Shown: piece by piece, positions 1,148 through 22,187 of the stretch
How the letters are laid out: every line of letters starts with the position of its first letter
Numbering within the stretch: position 1 is the stretch's first letter
Assembly (NCBI GenBank): GCA_947311115.1
Contig: CAMZKE010000010.1
Coordinates: forward strand, 1-57,031
Reading direction: 5' to 3'
Source of the DNA: an uncultured Bacteroidales bacterium
GTDB taxonomy: Bacteria > Bacteroidota > Bacteroidia > Bacteroidales > JAFGXI01
Length of the DNA stretch: 57,031 nt
The notes under the pieces: model-generated
Databases searched by the model: none
What the model saw: only the letters and a program-made list of their open reading frames with translations
What the model was told of the DNA's origin: nothing
Position numbers and translations under genes: made by a program

Positions 1148-2110
1148 CTATAATGAAAAATCAGCCAAAGCAATGGCTGTAATAGCTTCAATAATTACAG
1201 GAACTCGTAGAGCAATACATAGATCGTGGCGACCTTTAATTTTGAGTGTTTCAATTTTGTTGTTTTCAAAATTATAAGTTTCTTGTTTTGAATATATACT
1301 TGCCGTAGGGCGAACTGCCACCCTGAAAATAAGATTATTTCCATTACTTATTCCTCCATTAATTCCTCCTGCATTATTTGTTTTAGTAGTTCCTTTTTTA
1401 TCAATAATTGCATCGTTAAACTTACTTCCGGTCATTTTTGTTGCGGCAAAACCTACTCCAAACTCAATAGCTTTAATTCCGGGAATTGAAAATGCTAGGC
1501 TACTAATTTGCGATTCTACAGAGTTGAAGAATGGTTCGCCCAATCCTATTGGCATATTTTTAGCAACACATTCAATAATTCCGCCAACAGAATCTTTGTT
1601 TTTTATTGCATTATTTATTTCTTCATCAATATTGGTGTTTCCTGCAACTTGGGTAAGAGTAGCTGTTATATGTATATCTGAAATAATTTTTTTTGCAATA
1701 ACGCCGGCAGCAACAAGTCCAAGAGTTATTCTACCAGAGAAATGCCCGCCACCTCTATAATCTTGAAAGCCATTATATTTTTTTTGTGCAACAAAATCGG
1801 AGTGGGAGGGACGTGGGTGTTTAATTAAGTTAGAATAGTCTTTACTTCTTGTATTTTGGTTTTCAAATTCTATTAGTATTGGAGCTCCTGTGGTTTTTCC
1901 ATTAAAAACCCCTGATTTTATTAGTGGTATATCGCCTTCAATACGTGTAGTAGTACCTTTTGCTCCACTCTTTCTACGTAATAGGTCTGTTATGAAATCA
2001 TCTTCGCAAAGCGATATTCCTGCAGGACAACCGTCAACTATAACTCCAACCGATTTACCGTGAGATTCACCAAAAATGCTAATTCTAAATTTATTTCCGA
2101 AACTATTCAT
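1148..2110 (-). CDS. aroC: Chorismate synthase
   Basis: This 320-residue protein catalyses the last common step, EPSP to chorismate, using reduced FMN. The family signatures are present: GESHG at residues 14-18, RPSHSD near residue 100, YRGGGHFSGR near 118, GLGEPFF in the middle, and the C-terminal RHDLCIALR signature. It is about 35-40 residues shorter than the usual enzyme (about 360). The loss appears to be in internal loops and at the extreme C-terminus, which ends soon after ITAIALAD, while the catalytic motifs are kept, so I regard it as a compact functional form. It is the last biosynthetic gene of the aro operon and lies 7 bp after proC. Confidence 0.96.
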   Translation of the reverse strand: MNSFGNKFRISIFGESHGKSVGVIVDGCPAGISLCEDDFITDLLRRKSGAKGTTTRIEGDIPLIKSGVFNGKTTGAPILIEFENQNTRSKDYSNLIKHPRPSHSDFVAQKKYNGFQDYRGGGHFSGRITLGLVAAGVIAKKIISDIHITATLTQVAGNTNIDEEINNAIKNKDSVGGIIECVAKNMPIGLGEPFFNSVESQISSLAFSIPGIKAIEFGVGFAATKMTGSKFNDAIIDKKGTTKTNNAGGINGGISNGNNLIFRVAVRPTASIYSKQETYNFENNKIETLKIKGRHDLCIALRVPVIIEAITAIALADFSL

Positions 2111-2117
2111 GTGCTTG

Positions 2118-2918
2118 TTATTTTTTTACATTGCTAATTTTGTTGTACGAACTTAAAACGCCTTGTATAACCGAAGAGCTAAACCCGTTAAATTCCATTT
2201 TGTTAAGTCCGGTAATTGTAACACCAAGCGGAGTAGTAACTCTATCTACTTCTCTTTCAGGATGAAAATCGGAATTAATAACTAAAGAACTTGCTCCTTT
2301 AACAGTTTGTGCTGCAATTAATTGGGCTAATTCCGATTCGAAACCTATTTCTATTCCGGCTTGCATACTTGCACGAATGTATCGCAAAGCAAAGGCAATG
2401 CCACTAGCGGCAAGAATGGTTGCAGAACCCATTAATTCGTCGTTTATTATAACCGATTTTCCTAATTTATTGAACATATTTTTTACAATACTAATATTAT
2501 CATCGTTTTGTTTATATGACGATATGCAAGTCATAGATTCTTGGATAGAAATTGCGGTATTAGGCATCGCCCTAAAAATTGAAATATCGGCATCAATAAT
2601 TTCTTTTATATCTTTAATATTGACACCTGTTACTGTTGATATTACAATATGATTTTGGTTAAGAATAGGCGTAAATTCTTTTACAACATTTTCAAATTTA
2701 TGAGGTTTTACTGCAACAATTATAATATTAGATTGTTTTACCGCATCAATATTATTGTTTGTTATATTTATACCTCTATTCTTATAATCATTTAATTTAG
2801 ACGTATTTCTTCGTGTAAGTGTTAAATCTTCAGGGTTCACTGAATTTGATTTTAACAAACCATCAGCAATAGATTTTCCTAAGTTTCCTGTTCCAATAAT
2901 AGCAATTTTTGTATTCAT
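2118..2918 (-). CDS. proC: Pyrroline-5-carboxylate reductase
   Basis: A 266-residue protein of the ProC family, which reduces 1-pyrroline-5-carboxylate to proline with NAD(P)H. The N-terminal Rossmann motif GTGNLG lies at residues 9-14. VAVKPHKF and the sequence from AASGIAFALRYIRA to AAQTVKGA match the family's second half, although the usual SGPAY is SGIAF here. It lies between aroA (0 bp gap, adjacent) and aroC (7 bp) in an otherwise aromatic-acid operon, so it is almost certainly cotranscribed and would be under the same attenuator. A proline gene is unexpected there. An alternative role on another imine substrate cannot be excluded. Confidence 0.9.
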   Translation of the reverse strand: MNTKIAIIGTGNLGKSIADGLLKSNSVNPEDLTLTRRNTSKLNDYKNRGINITNNNIDAVKQSNIIIVAVKPHKFENVVKEFTPILNQNHIVISTVTGVNIKDIKEIIDADISIFRAMPNTAISIQESMTCISSYKQNDDNISIVKNMFNKLGKSVIINDELMGSATILAASGIAFALRYIRASMQAGIEIGFESELAQLIAAQTVKGASSLVINSDFHPEREVDRVTTPLGVTITGLNKMEFNGFSSSVIQGVLSSYNKISNVKK

Positions 2919-4136
2919 TTAGTTTAGTTTTTTTAAATCGTTAAAAAAGTTTGGATACGATTTGTTTATAGCATCATTATTTATTATTTTAATTTCTCCA
3001 TCGCAAAACAGATTCATTAAACCTCCTGCCATAGCAATGCGGTGGTCGTTATGCGAATCTATTTCACAAGCTTTTAGTTTGCCTCCTTTTACATACATAG
3101 AATCGTGTTCTAACTTAATTTCGATACCTATTTTTGCAAATTCTTTTTGTAAAGTTTTGGCTCGGTTACTTTCTTTATGCGTTAATCGCGAGATGCCCTT
3201 TATTTCGCTTACTTCATTACATTGGGCTGCTAAACACACTAACGGAGGAAATAAGTCGGGGCAGGCTGTGGCATCAAATTTAAAACTCTTTAGTTTATCT
3301 TTCTCTACTTTAACAGAATTGTTGTTTATTGTAATTTTTGCACCAGCCAATTTTAAAGCATCAATAATAGCCTTATCAGCTTGTGCTGATGCGTAATCAA
3401 GATTACTTATTACAACAGAGTTTTTAACAGCTCCATAAACTAAGAAAAAGGCACCGCCACTCCAATCGCCTTCAATATTATAGTTTATTGGCTTATATTT
3501 TTGTTTGCCTTTAATTATGAATTTTTGATAATTAATATTCTCTACTTCTACTCCAAAATCTTGCATTATTTGTAAAGTCATATCGATATAAGGTGTAGAT
3601 TTTAAATTGCTTACATTTATTTCTGAATCGTTGTTTAACAAAGGTAATACAATAAGTAAACCTGTTAAAAGTTGAGAACTTAACGAACCGTCAATATTTA
3701 TTTTGCCGGCTTTTATAGGTCCTTTTATTTTAAGAGGAAGTAAGCCGTTATTATTTTTAATTTTAACAGACAATTGTTCAAGTGCATCAACAATTATGTT
3801 TACCGGTCTGGTTTTTAGCGAGCCTTCTCCGGTAAGGGTAATTGTTTTATCGTTTAATGCGAAAATTGGTGAAAACATTCGTATTCCAAGCCCTGATTCG
3901 CCAACATTAAAAACATTGTTTTGGAATTCTATTTTTGAAGAGATAACAGTTAAGTTTTCATCGCTTTCAATAGTTTTTACTCCCAAATTTTCAATAATTT
4001 GTTTTGCTGAAAGCGAATCGTTGCACCAAGAAATATTATGCAAATTACTTGTTCCGTGTGCTAAGGCAGAAATTGCCAAAGCTCGCTGGAAATAACTTTT
4101 TGATGCGGCAACTGTTATTTTGTTCACTTCTTTCAT
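2919..4136 (-). CDS. aroA: 3-phosphoshikimate 1-carboxyvinyltransferase (EPSP synthase)
   Basis: A 405-residue enzyme joining shikimate-3-phosphate and PEP, somewhat shorter than the usual 425-450. Visible family features are AASKSYFQRALAISALAHG at residues 10-28 (the SKS..xRAL substrate loop), SLSSQLLTGL, GDWSGGAFF, the TACPDLFPPL acid motif, LTHKESNRA, and SHNDHRIAMAGGL near the C-terminus. The segment equivalent to the canonical GNAGTAxRP is GESGLGIRM, so the Thr and Pro positions linked to glyphosate sensitivity are not conserved. The start directly precedes ITVAASKS, as expected. It lies downstream of aroD across a 208-bp gap holding an inverted repeat and abuts proC. Confidence 0.95.
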   Translation of the reverse strand: MKEVNKITVAASKSYFQRALAISALAHGTSNLHNISWCNDSLSAKQIIENLGVKTIESDENLTVISSKIEFQNNVFNVGESGLGIRMFSPIFALNDKTITLTGEGSLKTRPVNIIVDALEQLSVKIKNNNGLLPLKIKGPIKAGKINIDGSLSSQLLTGLLIVLPLLNNDSEINVSNLKSTPYIDMTLQIMQDFGVEVENINYQKFIIKGKQKYKPINYNIEGDWSGGAFFLVYGAVKNSVVISNLDYASAQADKAIIDALKLAGAKITINNNSVKVEKDKLKSFKFDATACPDLFPPLVCLAAQCNEVSEIKGISRLTHKESNRAKTLQKEFAKIGIEIKLEHDSMYVKGGKLKACEIDSHNDHRIAMAGGLMNLFCDGEIKIINNDAINKSYPNFFNDLKKLN

Positions 4137-4200
4137 TTACATTTATTTCTTGTTTATTATATATTTGTTATTAATCTAACGGAAATTTATAGTAATAAAT

Positions 4201-4281
4201 TAGATACTTCGCTTTGCTTTGTATGACAGAGTTGATGTTAAAATAAAATTGTCTGTCATTTTGAACCTAGAGAAAAATCTA
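4201..4281. repeat. Imperfect inverted repeat in the aroD-aroA gap
   Basis: Two 29-nt arms at 4201-4229 and 4253-4281 are reverse complements at 19 of 29 positions. Both carry CTGTCAT at the inner end and AGATT/ATCTA-type sequence at the outer end. The arms resemble the widespread TGTCATTCTGAGCGAAG...AATCT intergenic repeat, and a related hairpin lies at 32983-33031. The element lies inside the aro operon, so it would be transcribed and could fold into a long hairpin between aroD and aroA. No T-tract follows, so it is not a clear terminator. Confidence 0.6.
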
Positions 4282-4344
4282 GTATAAATTATTACGGTAC
4301 AAATTCACTAAGTAAATAATATTTAACATTCAATACTCATTTTA

Positions 4345-5001
4345 TTAAATTAATTTGAAAATATTACTCATTTCATCAAAAGTTAATTGACCAGATGCTG
4401 TGCTACTGTTTTTATCTGGTGCTACGTAAGTGAAATTAGCACCTAAGTATAAACTTGTAACTCGTGAAATTCTGCCAACTTCGCCCATACCAAAAGCAAT
4501 AATTTTATCATTTTTTTCGTATAACGATAATATTCGAGCAACTTCGGTTTGCGATTTTACTTGTGTTGCAATTTTTACATAATCAGCATTTTTATTTTTT
4601 GCTGAGTCTATTATTTTTTGTAGTTCTTCCATATTTGGAGTGTGTTCAAAATTATGATACGATAAAATTATCTTACAATCTGCATTTTGTGCATACTCAA
4701 TTAATTCTGTAATATATTTATTATTTTCTTCTAGCTCAATATCAATATATTTAGCTCCCAAGTCAATAATATTCATTAAAAAGGCAGTAGCTTGTTCGTT
4801 AAGTAGTTCGCCTAATCTGTGTGTGATAATATATTGTGTATCAAGTTTAAATAACTGCTCTAAATGGTTGAAATCAAGATTTAATAAATCTAATCTTAAC
4901 TCAACTAATTCTGCATTTTTGCAAATGAGTAAACATTCTTCAAAAGATTTGTTTGCAATGCTTACACAAATATTTTTAGCTGATAGATTTTTATAGTTCA
5001 T
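4345..5001 (-). CDS. aroD: 3-dehydroquinate dehydratase, type I
   Basis: A 218-residue class I enzyme that dehydrates 3-dehydroquinate to 3-dehydroshikimate through a Schiff base. Catalytic features are visible: ELRLDLL around residues 34-40 with the substrate-binding Arg, the general-base His116 in ILSYHNFEHTP, and the Schiff-base Lys143 in DYVKIATQ. GQLTFDE closes the active site near the C-terminus. Its start codon overlaps the end of aroB by 11 bp, indicating translational coupling. Many Bacteroidota use the unrelated type II enzyme, so the type matters for annotation. A 208-bp gap with an inverted repeat follows before aroA. Confidence 0.95.
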   Translation of the reverse strand: MNYKNLSAKNICVSIANKSFEECLLICKNAELVELRLDLLNLDFNHLEQLFKLDTQYIITHRLGELLNEQATAFLMNIIDLGAKYIDIELEENNKYITELIEYAQNADCKIILSYHNFEHTPNMEELQKIIDSAKNKNADYVKIATQVKSQTEVARILSLYEKNDKIIAFGMGEVGRISRVTSLYLGANFTYVAPDKNSSTASGQLTFDEMSNIFKLI

Positions 5002-6013
5002 AGTTTAAAATTTCGTTTTGAAGTTCATTAATACTTATTGTTTCTACTTTTGCTTCGCCAATTTGCTTTAAGTATATAAAATCAATTTTATTATTATTCT
5101 TTTTCTTATCCTTTACAATAGCATCGGCAATTTTATTGTTATCTATATTAACTGATATAGGCAGGCCAATCAATAATAATACATCTTTAATTTTATTAAA
5201 TTCTTGTTCAGAAATATATTTTTTCTTTAATGATAAGTACGATGCGAAAACAATACCAACGGCAACTGCTTGTCCGTGAGTCAAATTGCTGTATTTTTCA
5301 ATTGCGTGAGCTAAAGTATGACCAAAATTTAGTTTTTTTCGTTCACCATTTTCTTTTTCATCATTTTCTACAATTTTTGCTTTAATTTTAATGTTATCAA
5401 AAACTAGATTTGTTATTGTATTGTAATCTAAATTTAGTATTTTATTATAGTTTTCTTTAACAAATTTAAACATCTTATAATCAGCGATTAACGAGTGTTT
5501 AATTATTTCACCCATACCCGTATTTATCTCAGCTTTTGGTAATGTGTTAAGCAATTTAGTATCACAAATAACAAATTCCGGTTGATTAAAATTACCAATA
5601 ATATTTTTGTATGAGTTAAAATTAACACCATTTTTGCCACCAACACTTGCATCTACTTGAGATAATAGACTGGTAGAAACAAAGCCAAATTTTATACCTC
5701 TCATATAAATTGAAGCAACAAATCCTGCTATATCGCAAACTATTCCTCCGCCTATGCCAAGTATAAAACTATGTCTGTCTGCATTTAGTTTTATTAAGTT
5801 ATCAATAATATAATTAATTGTTTCAAAGGTTTTAATTTGTTCTCCTAAACCAATTTTAATTATAGGGAATTTAGGGAATTTATCAGAATAATATTTATTC
5901 AAATTTTCATCAGTAATAATAATTACATTATTGTTAGGCAAAAAGTTTTTGATATTCTCAAAACTTTCGCCTACAATAATTTTTGATGTTCCTTTTAATG
6001 TTATTTGTTGCAT
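4991..6013 (-). CDS. aroB: 3-dehydroquinate synthase
   Basis: A 340-residue NAD-dependent, metal-dependent enzyme that cyclises DAHP to 3-dehydroquinate. The NAD-binding GIGGGIVCDIAGF lies at residues 87-98, and STSLLSQVDASVGGKNGVN spans about 113-131. The metal ligands are Glu169 (GMGEIIKHS), His232 (NFGHTLAHAIEK) and His246 (THGQAVAVG). The end overlaps aroD by 11 bp. The 80-bp gap upstream, after the DAHP synthase, contains a TACATTTG box on this strand that may serve as a weak internal promoter. Confidence 0.97.
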   Translation of the reverse strand: MQQITLKGTSKIIVGESFENIKNFLPNNNVIIITDENLNKYYSDKFPKFPIIKIGLGEQIKTFETINYIIDNLIKLNADRHSFILGIGGGIVCDIAGFVASIYMRGIKFGFVSTSLLSQVDASVGGKNGVNFNSYKNIIGNFNQPEFVICDTKLLNTLPKAEINTGMGEIIKHSLIADYKMFKFVKENYNKILNLDYNTITNLVFDNIKIKAKIVENDEKENGERKKLNFGHTLAHAIEKYSNLTHGQAVAVGIVFASYLSLKKKYISEQEFNKIKDVLLLIGLPISVNIDNNKIADAIVKDKKKNNNKIDFIYLKQIGEAKVETISINELQNEILNYEL

Positions 6014-6093: not shown

Positions 6094-7179
6094 TTACGCA
6101 TTCATCACTTCTGTTTGCTTATTAATTGATTCTTGATGAATTGCTTTGTAAACTTTAGAAATAAAATCTTCAGATAAATCTCTTTTTCGACCTTTATTTT
6201 TATGATTTTGTAATAAAGAACTCCATCTGCCTTGTTGAAGAATAGTCATGTTATTTTCTTTTTTATAGTTTCCAATATTAACCGATACTTTCATTCTTTG
6301 TTGTAATAAGTCCATTAATTCATCATCAATTTTATCAATTTTATGACGCAAATTTTCTAAGGTATCTAAAGATGCGTTATCAGGACTAACATCTCTAATA
6401 ACAATACTTTCTAGCATTATATTTAATGTTTCGGGAGTAATTTGCTGTTTTGCATCGCTCCATGCATTATCGGGGTCAATATGCGATTCTATCATTAAAC
6501 CATCAAAGTTTAAATCCATTGCTTTTTGCGATATTGGCTGAATTAGTTCACGTTTTCCACCAATGTGGCTAGGGTCGTTTATCATAACTATGTTTGGCAA
6601 TCTTCGTTTAATATCGATAGCCAACTGCCATTGCGGTATGTTGCGGTATATTGAATGTTCGTAAGATGAAAACCCTCTGTGAATAACACCAATTTTACGA
6701 ATACCTGCTTTGTAAATTCGTTGTACTGCACCTTCCCATAAATCAACATCTGGATTAACAGGGTTTTTTATCAATACAGGAATATCAACGCCTTCTAGAG
6801 CATCGGCAATTTCTTGCATTGCGAATGGGTTTGCCGATGTTCTGGCACCTATCCAAATAATATCTATGCCCGAACGTAAGGCTTCGTAAACATGCTTAAC
6901 ATTGGCTACCTCAGTAGAAACTAACATTCCTGTTTCTGTTTTTACTTTCTTTAACCACTTTAAGCCTTTGCTACCAACACCTTCAAACGAACCAGGTTTT
7001 GTACGTGGTTTCCAAATACCTGCACGATAAATGGTTACGCCTATTTTCTTTAATTGGCGTGCTGTTTCCAAAACTTGTTCTTCTGTTTCGGCACTACAAG
7101 GTCCTGAAATTACTATGGGTTTATCGCTGTTTGGTAATCCCCAGTTTTTTAACTCTGTAATATTTAATTCTGTACTCAT
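6094..7179 (-). CDS. Bifunctional DAHP synthase / chorismate mutase
   Basis: A 361-residue fusion. Residues 1 to about 262 are a type I-beta DAHP synthase joining PEP and erythrose-4-phosphate. GPCSAE lies at 26-31, KPRTKPG at 57-63, TEVANVKH at 89-96, IGARTSANPF at 110-119, IHRGFSSYE at 166-174, DPSHIGGKR at 202-210 and IESHIDPDNAWSDA at 230-243. Residues about 272-361 are an AroQ-type chorismate mutase: NLRHKIDKIDDELMDLLQQR, then Lys/Glu-rich helices. So one protein covers entry into the pathway and the first step of the Phe/Tyr branch. In related fusions the mutase domain lets prephenate or chorismate inhibit the synthase. Spacing to tyrA is 11 bp. Confidence 0.95.
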   Translation of the reverse strand: MSTELNITELKNWGLPNSDKPIVISGPCSAETEEQVLETARQLKKIGVTIYRAGIWKPRTKPGSFEGVGSKGLKWLKKVKTETGMLVSTEVANVKHVYEALRSGIDIIWIGARTSANPFAMQEIADALEGVDIPVLIKNPVNPDVDLWEGAVQRIYKAGIRKIGVIHRGFSSYEHSIYRNIPQWQLAIDIKRRLPNIVMINDPSHIGGKRELIQPISQKAMDLNFDGLMIESHIDPDNAWSDAKQQITPETLNIMLESIVIRDVSPDNASLDTLENLRHKIDKIDDELMDLLQQRMKVSVNIGNYKKENNMTILQQGRWSSLLQNHKNKGRKRDLSEDFISKVYKAIHQESINKQTEVMNA

Positions 7180-7190
7180 TGCTTTTTATT

Positions 7191-8033
7191 TTATAATATT
7201 TTTTGAATTTGATTTGCTTGCGAAATTAATTCCGTTAATTCTTCTTTGTTATTTTCTTTTATTGATGTTCTAAATGATTTTAATTTTTCGAGATATGTAT
7301 CAATTACCTCTAAAACGAATTCTGAATTTTGTTCAAAAATTGGTATCCACATTTCAGCAGAACTTTTAGCCAAACGAACTGTTGAAGCAAAACCACCACT
7401 AGCTAAATTTAATATTCGTTTTTCATTTTTTTCTTTTTCTAATACTGCTAATGATAATACAAATGACGAAATATGCGACATATGCGACACATAGGCAGCA
7501 CTTACATCATGCTGCTTTGAGTGCATAAATATTATTTTCATATTTAAAGTTTCGTACATTTGTTTGACTAAGCTTAATGCAAAATCCGAACTTAATTCTT
7601 CGTCGCAAATAATTGCATTTTTATAATCGAATAATCGGCTTACTGCAGCCAAAGGTCCAGAAAACTCGGTTCCTGCCATAGGGTGAGATGCTACATATTG
7701 TTTTCTATTGTTGTGATTTTCTACTATTTTACAAATTCCAGCTTTAGTTGAGCCAACATCAGTTACAACTTTTATTGTTCCTTTTATTTTATCTAAAATA
7801 TTTGGTAATAATTTTTGTGTTGCATCTATTGGTGTTGCAATTATTATTAAATCCGATTCTGATATAGCTGTATCTAAATCAGAAATTTCATCAACAATCT
7901 TACTCAATAAAGCAATGTTAGTGTGGTTTATATTATTGTCAACACCTATTATTTTATTTGCAAATCCTCTGTTTTTAAGGTCTAAGCCAATTGAACCACC
8001 AATTAAGCCAAGACCAATTATTGTTACAACCAT
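7191..8033 (-). CDS. tyrA: Prephenate dehydrogenase
   Basis: A 280-residue NAD(P)-dependent enzyme that oxidatively decarboxylates prephenate to 4-hydroxyphenylpyruvate for Tyr synthesis. The Rossmann motif GLGLIGGSIG lies at residues 7-16. IIATPID (64-70) and DVGSTKAGI (92-100) follow. The active-site His117 lies in ASHPMAGTEFSG, and a second His pair in YVSHMSHISS (181-190) lines the substrate pocket in this family. There is no C-terminal ACT domain and no fused mutase domain, so Tyr control must come from elsewhere, probably the FYYFWFYY leader. Gaps to neighbours are 6-11 bp. Confidence 0.95.
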   Translation of the reverse strand: MVVTIIGLGLIGGSIGLDLKNRGFANKIIGVDNNINHTNIALLSKIVDEISDLDTAISESDLIIIATPIDATQKLLPNILDKIKGTIKVVTDVGSTKAGICKIVENHNNRKQYVASHPMAGTEFSGPLAAVSRLFDYKNAIICDEELSSDFALSLVKQMYETLNMKIIFMHSKQHDVSAAYVSHMSHISSFVLSLAVLEKEKNEKRILNLASGGFASTVRLAKSSAEMWIPIFEQNSEFVLEVIDTYLEKLKSFRTSIKENNKEELTELISQANQIQKIL

Positions 8034-8039
8034 ACTTGT

Positions 8040-9257
8040 TTAATGAAATTTAGTAAAAACCATTTCGTACTCATCTTCATTTTTCTCAATAAAATCGGTT
8101 TTTTCAACAAATTGAGAAATAATGTTTCTTGCAGTTGCTAATGTTTTTACATTGGAGCATAAAGAAATACGAACATAACGCTCGCCATTACTTCCAAAAA
8201 TACTGCCAGGAGTAATAAAAACGCCGTCTTTTAGTAGCATATCTGAAAACTGTTCGGCATTTTTAAATTTTGGAAATATTTTAGCCCAAACAAACATTCC
8301 AACTTGGTCTTTGTTGTAATCGAACTTTAAAATATCGTATATTTCAAATACAATTTTTCTTCGTTCAGAATAAATATTATTTAAAGATGTAAACCAACTT
8401 TTATTGGCATTTAAAGCTGTAATTGCAGCTAATTGTATAGGTTTAAACATGCCGGAATCCATATTGCTTTTAGCTTGCAGTACAGTGTTTATATATTCTG
8501 TATTTCCGGCTAACATTCCTACACGCCAACCTGCCATATTGTGCGACTTGCTTAATGAATTAAGCTCTAATGCTATTTCGTTAGCTCTATCAGCTTCTAA
8601 TATGCTAATCTGTTCATTGTTAAGTATAAAACTATATGGGTTATCGTTAATAATTAAAATATTATGCTTTAATCCGAAATCAACAAGTTTCTGAAATATA
8701 TCTTTTGTGGCTTTTGCCCCTGTAGGCATATTAGGATAATTTACCCACATTATTTTTACTTGACTTAGGTCTTCTTTTTCAATTTCTTCAAAATCGGGAT
8801 ACCAGTTATTCTGTTCTTTTAAATTGTAATTAATAAGCTCAGCACCAAGTAATTTTGAAACTGCAGAATATGTTGGATACCCCGGATTTGGAACCAATAC
8901 TTTATCGTTTGGATTTAAAAATGCCATAGAAATATGCATTATTCCTTCTTTTGACCCCATAAGTGGTAAAATCTCATTTTCCTTTAAGTTTACATTAAAA
9001 TATTTGGTATAAAAATTTGCAAATGATTCACGCAACTCAACAATTCCTGAATAAGATTGATATGCATGGTTTTCTTTTTTTAAACTTTCTTCTAAAAGTT
9101 TGTAAATTGTTTTTTCGTCTGGAGACAAGTCAGGACTGCCAATACCAAGATTAATAACAGTTCTTCCGTTATTTCCCATTTTTCTAATTTCTTTTAGCTT
9201 TTTTGAGAAATAGTATTCTTTAACCTCGTTTAATCTATTTGCTTTTGCAATTTTCAT
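8040..9257 (-). CDS. Class I/II pyridoxal-phosphate aminotransferase, probably aromatic
   Basis: A 405-residue fold-type I aminotransferase. The PLP Lys237 lies in SLSKSHNMAGWRVG. NYPNMPTG (173-180) and DNPYSFI (205-211) bind the cofactor ring and phosphate region, and the late ISLC..VKTLATA segment carries the Arg that binds the substrate carboxylate (VRISL). By sequence it belongs with aspartate / LL-diaminopimelate-type aminotransferases. Its place between tyrA and pheA points to the last step, phenylpyruvate and hydroxyphenylpyruvate to Phe and Tyr. That substrate is inferred from context and cannot be read from the active site here. Confidence 0.88.
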   Translation of the reverse strand: MKIAKANRLNEVKEYYFSKKLKEIRKMGNNGRTVINLGIGSPDLSPDEKTIYKLLEESLKKENHAYQSYSGIVELRESFANFYTKYFNVNLKENEILPLMGSKEGIMHISMAFLNPNDKVLVPNPGYPTYSAVSKLLGAELINYNLKEQNNWYPDFEEIEKEDLSQVKIMWVNYPNMPTGAKATKDIFQKLVDFGLKHNILIINDNPYSFILNNEQISILEADRANEIALELNSLSKSHNMAGWRVGMLAGNTEYINTVLQAKSNMDSGMFKPIQLAAITALNANKSWFTSLNNIYSERRKIVFEIYDILKFDYNKDQVGMFVWAKIFPKFKNAEQFSDMLLKDGVFITPGSIFGSNGERYVRISLCSNVKTLATARNIISQFVEKTDFIEKNEDEYEMVFTKFH

Positions 9258-9268
9258 ATTTATAATGT

Positions 9269-10156
9269 TTAAACTGTTTGTACTTCTTTTTCTTTTGTAA
9301 TTTTATTTTCGAAAGGTCTTTTTGCTTTTTCGTATTCGCCAATTATCGATAAATCAATAGTTAACGGTTTTATAGCGTCAAGCGAAAGACGATATTTATT
9401 GTAATTGGTAAAAACTAAATCGGCATAGAACATATATTCCCATTCTTTTCCAACAACCGGTAGCGATTGAATTTTAGTTAGGTTTATTTTGTAAAATGCT
9501 AATACCGATAATACTCTTGATAGACTACCTTCTTCGTTTGGTAATTTAAAATTTATTGATGATTTGTTAATGTGTTTGTTTTGAGTGTGATGCTTGTATA
9601 TAATGTCGTTTGAAACTACTAAAAAACGAGTGTAATTTCGCTTATTTGTTTCAATACTTTTGTCTAATATTTTTAAACCATATTGTGTAGCCGCTAAGTC
9701 GCTTGAGATTGCTGCAATACCTTTTAAATTATTATCGGCAATTCGTTTTGCACTGAGTGCTGTATCTTCGCTATCAATAAGTTTAACTCCTTTTCGCCTT
9801 AATGGATTTAAAAAATCATGGCATTGTTGTATTGCCATTGGGTGAGAGTGTATTTCTTTAATATCTTCAATGTTTTCAGATTTAAGAGCTACTAAATTTT
9901 GTTCAATTCGCAAATACATTTCTCCCATAATCTTTAATCCTGAGTTTTTTAGAAGGGCATAGTTTGGAATAATACTTCCTGCAACAGTATTTTCAATGGC
10001 AACTATACCTACATCTGCATTTTTAAATTCAAGGCTATCGAATAAGTCGTTAAAAGTATTGCACTGAATTATATCCGATATTTCTGTATTATCAAAATAT
10101 TGCCTTGTTGCAATTTCGTGAAACGAACCTAATACACCTTGTATTGCTATTCTCAT
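9269..10156 (-). CDS. pheA: Prephenate dehydratase with C-terminal ACT domain
   Basis: A 295-residue enzyme converting prephenate to phenylpyruvate. The catalytic domain shows GVLGSFHEIA at the N-terminus, VAIENTVAGSI at residues 52-62, HSHPMAIQQC at 103-112 and the active TRF motif at 176-178. The ACT domain starts near residue 200: LPNEEGSLSRVLSVL corresponds to the Phe-binding GALxxxL element, while the usual ESRP is QSLP (230-233). Feedback by Phe may therefore differ from the E. coli enzyme. It has no chorismate mutase domain, which is supplied by the DAHP synthase fusion. This is the first structural gene of the aro operon, 25 nt after the attenuator. Confidence 0.95.
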   Translation of the reverse strand: MRIAIQGVLGSFHEIATRQYFDNTEISDIIQCNTFNDLFDSLEFKNADVGIVAIENTVAGSIIPNYALLKNSGLKIMGEMYLRIEQNLVALKSENIEDIKEIHSHPMAIQQCHDFLNPLRRKGVKLIDSEDTALSAKRIADNNLKGIAAISSDLAATQYGLKILDKSIETNKRNYTRFLVVSNDIIYKHHTQNKHINKSSINFKLPNEEGSLSRVLSVLAFYKINLTKIQSLPVVGKEWEYMFYADLVFTNYNKYRLSLDAIKPLTIDLSIIGEYEKAKRPFENKITKEKEVQTV

Positions 10157-10180: not shown

Positions 10181-10215
10181 AAAAAAAAACTCCCGAGATA
10201 TTTTCTCGGGAGTTT
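10181..10215 (-). terminator. Attenuator terminator of the aro operon
   Basis: On the minus strand ACTCCCGAG and CTCGGGAGT form a perfect 9-bp, GC-rich stem (extended by A-T pairs) around a short AT loop, followed by a run of eight T. It lies between the leader peptide and pheA, only 25 nt before the pheA start, so it can only act as a premature terminator of the operon's own transcript. Its 5' arm contains TCCCGAG, the exact complement of CTCGGGA inside the leader peptide gene (10250-10256). Confidence 0.93.
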
Positions 10216-10235
10216 AAAATTTTAATTGTTTAATT

Positions 10236-10313
10236 TTAATACAATTCTATCCCGAGCTTTATTTTGTAATAAAACCAGAAATAATAAAATTGTATGTTTG
10301 TGTTTGTTATCAT
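10236..10313 (-). CDS. Aromatic leader peptide controlling the aro operon
   Basis: A 25-codon open frame starts at ATG 10313 and ends with TAA at 10236. It begins MITNTNIQ, continues with an unbroken run FYYFWFYY (codons 9-16: three Phe, four Tyr, one Trp) and ends KIKLGIELY. Eight consecutive aromatic codons would hardly occur by chance, and the frame lies between a good promoter and a terminator ahead of genes making these same amino acids. Codons 20-22 (CTC GGG A) can pair with the terminator's 5' arm. I infer that a ribosome stalled in the aromatic run leaves this segment free and an antiterminator forms. A ribosome reaching the stop codon covers it and the terminator forms. A helper stem AATTGT/ACAATT may stabilise the antiterminator. 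Confidence 0.92.
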   Translation of the reverse strand: MITNTNIQFYYFWFYYKIKLGIELY

Positions 10314-10330
10314 AATTTATTTTGACTCAG

Positions 10331-10363
10331 CAAATGTATGTTATTTATTTTTTTAAATACAAA
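10331..10363 (-). promoter_or_regulatory. Promoter of the aro leader and operon
   Basis: On the minus strand a -33 TTTG (10363-10360) and a -7 TACATTTG (10338-10331) are separated by 21 nt, matching the Bacteroidota primary promoter form. With the usual start about 4 nt after the G, the RNA would begin near 10327, leaving about 13 nt before the leader ATG. The same boxes with the same 21-nt spacer occur before the trp and his leaders. Confidence 0.85.
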
Positions 10364-16813: not shown

Positions 16814-16846
16814 ACAAAAAAAGGTCTATCGTAACCGATAGACCTT
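16814..16846 (-). terminator. Attenuator terminator of the trp operon
   Basis: On the minus strand AAGGTCTATCG and CGATAGACCTT form a perfect 11-bp stem with a GTTA loop, followed by a T-run. It lies 24 nt before the trpE start. Its inner stem and loop (ATCGGTTACGAT, 16839-16828) can instead pair with GTTGTAACTTGAT (16888-16876), which spans the leader stop codon, over about 12 pairs with one bulge and a few wobbles. Confidence 0.94.
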
Positions 16847-16881: not shown

Positions 16882-16947
16882 TTACAACTGCATATTAATT
16901 TGCAATTGCCACCACCAATTATTTGTATGTAAATTCTCTGTTATCAT
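16882..16947 (-). CDS. trpL: trp operon leader peptide
   Basis: A 21-codon frame starts at ATG 16947 and ends with TAA at 16882. It begins MITENLHTNN, then WWW (codons 11-13), and ends QLQINMQL. Three tandem Trp codons in a short frame between a promoter and a terminator ahead of trpE is the classical attenuation arrangement. The strand that can form the antiterminator covers the leader stop codon, so a ribosome terminating normally masks it and lets the terminator fold. A ribosome waiting at the Trp codons leaves it free. The first codons, ATG ATA ACA, are shared with the aro leader, hinting at common descent. Confidence 0.94.
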   Translation of the reverse strand: MITENLHTNNWWWQLQINMQL

Positions 16948-22064: not shown

Positions 22065-22124
22065 ATGAATTTTATACAATTACATCATTTACATCATCAT
22101 TTTATCAGTCCTCAGACTGTGTGA
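22065..22124 (+). CDS. hisL: his operon leader peptide
   Basis: A 19-residue frame, MNFIQLHHLHHHFISPQTV, holds five His codons (all CAT) within six codons. It resembles the E. coli HisL peptide with its His run, and sits between a promoter and a terminator ahead of hisG. After the His codons lies CTCAGAC (22111-22117), the perfect complement of GTCTGAG (22160-22166) in the terminator's 5' arm. CAGTC/GACTG around it can also form a small local hairpin overlapping the end of the frame. I infer classical attenuation: His shortage stalls the ribosome at the CAT codons, freeing CTCAGAC to form the antiterminator. Confidence 0.95.
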   Translation: MNFIQLHHLHHHFISPQTV

Positions 22125-22152: not shown

Positions 22153-22187
22153 AAATCCTGTCTGAGTAAATCAGATGGGATTTTTTA
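22153..22187 (+). terminator. Attenuator terminator of the his operon
   Basis: AAATCCTGTCTGA (22153-22165) pairs with TCAGATGGGATTT (22171-22183) as a continuous 13-bp stem including two G-T pairs. The loop is GTAAA and a T-run follows. It lies 40 nt before hisG. The 5' arm and loop (22160-22170) are also perfectly complementary to an 11-nt sequence after the terminator (22200-22210), so the same strand has three possible partners. Confidence 0.93.

Follow-up and report, generated by a model that had tools for sequence, protein, structure and literature searches.

The region upstream of pheA in the window, the whole 57,031-nt stretch of Bacteroidales DNA analyzed here, very likely works by ribosome-mediated transcription attenuation, with a single leader responding to several aromatic amino acids. 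The computational analysis established its parts, their conservation, covariation and geometry, and a codon choice that follows the genes controlled.

The pheA leader and its predicted RNA switch

By sequence reading, the leader peptide ORF (MITNTNIQFYYFWFYYKIKLGIELY; 10236–10313, minus strand) comprises 25 codons, from an ATG at 10313 to a TAA stop ending at 10236. Codons 9–16 (10266–10289, minus strand), assigned as the control codons by ribosome-position folding, are spelled TTT TAT TAT TTC TGG TTT TAT TAC and encode FYYFWFYY. The ORF is preceded by a Bacteroidota-type promoter (10331–10363, minus strand), in which a −33 TTTG (10363–10360) is separated by a 21-nt spacer from the −7 element TACATTTG (10338–10331). 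It is followed by an intrinsic terminator (10181–10215, minus strand) with a predicted 12-bp stem, a 5-nt loop, a T9 tract and a folding energy of −18.5 kcal/mol. The 8-bp core of the terminator consists of CTCCCGAG (10212–10205) and CTCGGGAG (10197–10190) with AAAATAT between them, the T9 tract occupies 10189–10181, and the distance from terminator to pheA is 24 nt. An in-frame CTCGGGA (10256–10250) is the perfect complement of TCCCGAG (10211–10205) in the terminator. The frame of eight aromatic codons, the promoter, the terminator and this pairing had all been named in the original prediction, and each was confirmed base for base. Accordingly, the leader, terminator and antiterminator by which a trp/phe/his-type attenuator is recognized in sequence were all present.

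The predicted switch on the minus strand has all four segments. Segment 2, the antiterminator 5′ arm, consists of CTCGGGA plus TAGAATT (10243–10256), and segment 3, CTCCCGAG (10205–10212), serves both as the antiterminator 3′ arm and as the terminator 5′ arm. In the minimum free energy (MFE) structure without a ribosome, a segment 1:2 protector hairpin (AUACAAUUUUAUU ... GAUAGAAUUGUAU around CUCGGG; 10239–10295) is predicted. The MFE of the 159-nt leader was −38.8 kcal/mol (z = −7.8), which was equalled by 0 of 200 shuffles. In this fold, AUACAAUUUUAUU paired with the region around CUCGGGAUAGAAUUGUAU (1:2) and the terminator was left to form, while with segments 1 and 4 removed, CUCGGGAUAGAAUU paired with AAUUUUAAACUCCCGAG (2:3). 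Folding in two states had been suggested with the original prediction as a test of the switch, and 2:3 and 1:2/terminator were both predicted.

The probability of the 2:3 pairing, P(2:3), was computed for the transcript truncated after segment 3, with the ribosome footprint barred from pairing. For the window's leader it was 0.002 without a ribosome, 0.00–0.04 with the ribosome at codons 1–4, 0.55–0.79 at codons 5–8 and 0.87–1.00 at codons 9–16, and with the standard footprint it dropped to 0.04 at codon 17, rose no higher beyond it and was 0.00 at the stop. Altering the footprint by a few nt moved the edges of the sensing window by about one codon. Since P(2:3) is high at codons 9–16, the strong sensing window coincides with the aromatic run itself, and the folding model does not distinguish between Phe, Tyr and Trp positions. 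As a counterpoint, a looser switch metric was reached by only 7 of 500 shuffles (p ~0.014).

From this architecture we infer stalling, termination and readthrough in the cell, as well as a response to Trp. Transcription from the promoter at 10331–10363 would yield a short leader RNA, and the leader ORF would be translated while RNA polymerase is still within the leader. A shortage of charged tRNA-Phe, tRNA-Tyr or (probably) tRNA-Trp would halt the ribosome inside FYYFWFYY, where it would mask segment 1, while segment 2 (CUCGGGA...) would stay free and pair with segment 3 (UCCCGAG), so that no terminator stem would form and pheA and the downstream genes would be transcribed. With all aromatic amino acids plentiful, the ribosome would reach the stop and mask segment 2, upon which 3:4 would form and transcription would end at about 10181; with no ribosome, the 1:2 hairpin would hide segment 2, leading to termination too. 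Because any one of the eight codons would suffice, the leader would work as an OR gate over its amino acids.

Conservation, covariation and tandem leaders

Relatives were drawn from 80 genomes near the window, from the phylum, from named records and from the order. The complete element, that is, a leader, a terminator and a complementary antiterminator, was found at 132 of 149 pheA loci and later at 186 of 203 non-redundant ones. Under strict criteria, 129 of 149 pheA upstreams were positive. The other genes of these loci gave 2 positives among 764 upstreams, one of which was the pheA leader itself viewed from a neighbouring start; random windows gave 0 of 396 and dinucleotide shuffles 1 of 298. 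A detectable complete element was absent in 17 of the 203 pheA loci, in some of them owing to short upstream sequence or to a leader failing one criterion. Besides Bacteroides fragilis (L119; MNVFTFTYYFFFYFYFSQKVEREFVCIK), the element occurs in Bacteroides xylanisolvens (L129), Parabacteroides (L106), Paraprevotella (L101) and Prevotella (L130), and at L061, where PheA is 63% identical, the run reads FYYFWFY. The promoter motif was conserved as well, as TAnnTTTG lay ≤75 nt upstream of 123 of 162 single leaders vs. 0.03 expected per 67 nt, the expectation being taken from stop-to-terminator spacers.

Covariation was evaluated with anchors picked by sequence alone, independent of pairing. The first pair outside the TCCYG/CRGGA core was paired in 91% (permuted mean 46%, maximum 61%) and the second in 84.5% (permuted mean 56%, maximum 66%). 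The covarying pairs flanking the core show all four Watson-Crick types, and the core itself co-changes from TCCCG/CGGGA to TCCTG/CAGGA. When terminators were swapped between loci, strong complementarity (score ≥18) fell from 77% to 22%. Counted from the first nucleotide of the final aromatic codon, segment 2 starts after a median of 16 nt (middle half 14–19, few <10), just beyond a stalled ribosome, as would be expected if it has to remain clear of one. The aromatic run and the covarying stem, whose conservation the original prediction had looked to in relatives, were therefore both found.

The folding behaviour also extended to the relatives, with a median P(2:3) over 185 leaders of 0.95 when the ribosome was stalled at an aromatic codon and of 0.0 when it stood at the stop. 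Without a ribosome, P(2:3) was <0.3 in only 39 of the 185; the 1:2 protector is thus predicted in a minority of relatives, and in the others the untranslated default either differs or is mispredicted. Taken together, conservation, antiterminator covariation, ribosome-position folding and geometry strongly support the attenuation reading.

At about 19 pheA loci, one complete aromatic leader is followed by another; the terminator of the first and the start codon of the second are usually 13–60 nt apart (150 nt at one locus), and the tandem state underwent ~12 changes on the tree. Among 20 candidate tandem loci, the promoter motif preceded the first leader in 14 and the second in one, L118; this candidate was rejected as false, as the hairpin of its first "leader" is weak and the promoter sits at the second. 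Tandem leaders with a single promoter and a terminator each were observed at L138, L157, L164, L199, L236, L242, L249, L267, L271, L272, L273, L274, L277, L279 and L280, and a second leader upstream of pheA also at L026 and L275. Upstream of trpE, L334 and L352 carry two tandem Trp-run leaders with a terminator after each. In the near relatives G491 and G649 (L319 and L320), the operon is split: pheA stands alone with a mostly Phe leader, and aat-tyrA-DAHP synthase-aroA lies behind two tandem F/Y/W leaders (MTTYTFSYFYYWFRTP and MVNFEFYYGFYYYLD in G491).

Two further observations concern the distribution. In the five nearest genomes (G001–G005), which belong to the same genus or family, pheA gave a match in 0 of 5 and the trpE matches were weak (E 2e-47 to 8e-41) or absent, a pattern that suggests, from the sequences, a loss of aromatic synthesis in the family. 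In addition, a record titled Lentisphaerae bacterium (L081) holds a pheA 50% identical to that of the window, with a terminator and an aromatic leader of high GC content (MITMTALRYYGTSYAFRFSG) upstream; misbinning or transfer may account for it.

Short ORFs that have an amino-acid run and a terminator were sought throughout the window, and only three were returned: the aromatic leader, a leader with WWW ahead of trpE and a His leader ahead of hisG. The Trp leader (MITENLHTNNWWWQLQINMQL; 16882–16947, terminator at ~16816–16846, minus strand) has its promoter spaced as in the aromatic leader, and Trp-run leaders, mostly WWW, precede trpE in 21 of 30 relatives. A strong antiterminator in the window's Trp leader was considered and rejected, as the same folding test gave a weak result (~0.33 vs. 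0.18). The His leader (MNFIQLHHLHHHFISPQTV; 22065–22124, terminator at 22153–22187, plus strand) has a promoter motif, and its CTCAGAC complements GTCTGAG of the terminator, making a third attenuator in the window.

Genes presumably controlled and amino acids presumably sensed

Downstream of the leader, six tightly packed genes lie on the minus strand: pheA, the first regulated gene, encoding prephenate dehydratase (9269–10156; NF008865, E 3.5e-60, below the curated cut-off), aat, a PLP aminotransferase (8040–9257), tyrA, prephenate dehydrogenase (7191–8033; NF006307 above cut-off), a DAHP synthase–chorismate mutase fusion named aroFQ here (6094–7179), aroB, 3-dehydroquinate synthase (4991–6013; TIGR01357 above cut-off), and aroD, type I dehydroquinate dehydratase (4345–5001). 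A 208-nt gap (4137–4344, minus strand) separates aroD from aroA, proC and aroC (1148–4136, minus strand), whose membership of the same transcript is uncertain and which might have their own promoter in the gap. The leader had been proposed to control nine genes; this is probable for the six packed ones from pheA to aroD, and is uncertain for the three behind the gap. A complete trp operon, trpE-G-D-C-F-B-A, lies directly upstream on the same strand.

The codon content of the leaders was compared with the genes that they precede. Leaders of pheA alone (n = 7) had a Tyr fraction of 0–0.17 vs. a median of 0.40 in 179 operon leaders (MWU p = 7e-6); the runs of the former consist entirely or almost entirely of Phe, such as SFFFFFF, FFTHFFFFF and FRFFFFFAFFF, and the latter have mixed runs in 179 of 179 cases. 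On the PheA tree, four independent contrasts were available and all four went in the expected direction, four being too few to reach 0.05 alone. In the genomes with pheA alone, or in others where the operon is split, the tyrA/DAHP-synthase units carry mixed leaders of their own (G023, MNNTFGYYAFYYYFFYNN; G033, MIKNISVFAYFYYYFYFSKK; G043, MAPVHTYYAWSFFFFYF...; G076, MKFTAVNGFYFWFYYFGG...). The content of the run thus tracks the genes controlled, as amino-acid sensing predicts and as is hard to explain otherwise.

The original prediction of a sensor for all three aromatic amino acids was supported for Phe and Tyr by this cross-genome comparison. For Trp it is plausible, on weaker evidence: the W codon is labile, and its link with gene content was lost after tree correction. 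It is somewhat unlikely, but a reading to be taken seriously, that the leader senses Phe and Tyr only, with the single Trp codon tolerated as drift under selection just for an aromatic residue and Trp left to the adjacent WWW leader. Such drift would fit the presence of W in only 40 of 186 pheA leaders (~20%, thus missing from ~80% of the homologous leaders) with ~30 changes on the tree, and the WWW held by the trpE leader of the same window. It would also fit the outcome for a candidate link between W codons and the presence of shikimate genes in the operon (19/55 vs. 20/110, p = 0.03), which was rejected because tree-independent pairs gave no support. However, W is the third commonest non-F/Y residue in the runs (W 21, G 30, S 27) though TGG is two changes from any Phe or Tyr codon, and several residues only one change away occur just 1–3 times. 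Moreover, the W codon is central in the modelled sensing window, with a P(2:3) of 1.00, and the operon holds DAHP synthase, which Trp needs too.

Two other explanations leave out slow decoding at hungry codons altogether. That the leader is a functional small aromatic or hydrophobic protein without any switch agrees with the ORF having its own promoter and with the full-length likeness of the leaders of close relatives, but the order and number of F, Y and W vary freely while the run, its spacing from segment 2 and the pairing of the RNA are retained, and the codon content tracks the downstream genes, which together make this reading extremely improbable. Arrest of the ribosome by the nascent aromatic peptide in response to a small molecule, in a TnaC-like manner, would affect the RNA structure identically if the halt fell within the run. 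Arrest peptides require specific residues at fixed places, whereas here F and Y interchange, the position of the run varies, and plain Phe-only or Trp-only runs substitute where the controlled genes change, so we consider this mechanism very unlikely. Attenuation by stalling at aromatic codons is the reading retained.

Relation to known attenuators and significance

Leader-peptide attenuation is a textbook mechanism, and in the enterobacterial ilvGMEDA (Ile/Leu/Val) and thrABC (Thr/Ile) operons one leader covers several amino acids of pathways sharing the operon. These leaders belong to other pathways and another phylum, and in Bacteroidales the codon mix visibly changes with the gene content. 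The E. coli pheA, trp and his leaders (RF01859 Phe_leader, RF00513 Trp_leader and RF00514 His_leader) resemble the window's leader in their end-product codons, in the overlapping 1:2, 2:3 and 3:4 pairings and in the terminator before the first gene. In contrast to them, the window's leader has a mixed Phe/Tyr/Trp run rather than a run of one amino acid, has segment 2 inside the ORF, and precedes a unit joining DAHP synthase with Phe and Tyr branch genes. No Rfam family scored above threshold (RF01859, 23 bits vs. a cut-off of 55; RF00514, 21.9 vs. 49), and the T-box model had no match in the leader.

Earlier reports touch on such elements in Bacteroidota. A putative attenuator before the pheA > hisHb > aroA-aroQ > tyrA operon of B. 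thetaiotaomicron, which is homologous to that of the window, was listed in 2005 from a prediction website (Table 7 of PMC1173090), and by its position it is almost certainly the homologous element; the term "leader peptide" does not occur in that paper, and the passages found give for it no sensed amino acid, conservation or tandem form. A Flavobacterium transcriptome study mentions, without detail, clues of leader-peptide attenuation before amino-acid operons (PMC9723704). Bacteroid-trp RNA (RF01692; Weinberg 2010) is a Bacteroidetes cis-regulatory motif, and the "pheA" motif of the same work is actinobacterial (PMC2864571). By its name, Bacteroid-trp is tied to trp genes, and it is a family separate from the window's leaders. 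As a family that might cover these leaders it was rejected, as nothing matched it in the window (pheA and trp leaders included), in the genome of the window or at seven pheA loci of Bacteroidales. With regard to the tandem form, the Salmonella mgtCBR leader is reported to contain two short ORFs and switches (PMC3641672); it serves a Mg2+/virulence operon, and in the tandem relatives found here a single promoter precedes two aromatic leaders of one kind.

In the openly accessible literature searched, neither the mixed F/Y(/W) peptide nor its spread or tandem form was found described. The claim that such a sensor had not been described holds only in part, given the putative B. thetaiotaomicron attenuator and the Flavobacterium mention. 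The element is real, conserved and mechanistically familiar, while its mixed and tandem form is apparently undescribed.

For the order as a whole, we lean slightly towards an OR gate for Phe, Tyr and, in some lineages including that of the window, Trp, the mix being re-edited with the operon content, and with two gates in series at about one in ten loci, which should sharpen the response. For Bacteroidota, a phylum dominant in the human gut, the literature found says little about how aromatic amino-acid synthesis is controlled, and the leader offers a specific, testable answer for Bacteroides, Parabacteroides and Prevotella. As the codon content changes, the amino acids sensed by an operon would be readable straight from the sequence, and the tandem leaders provide a natural test of two attenuators in series.
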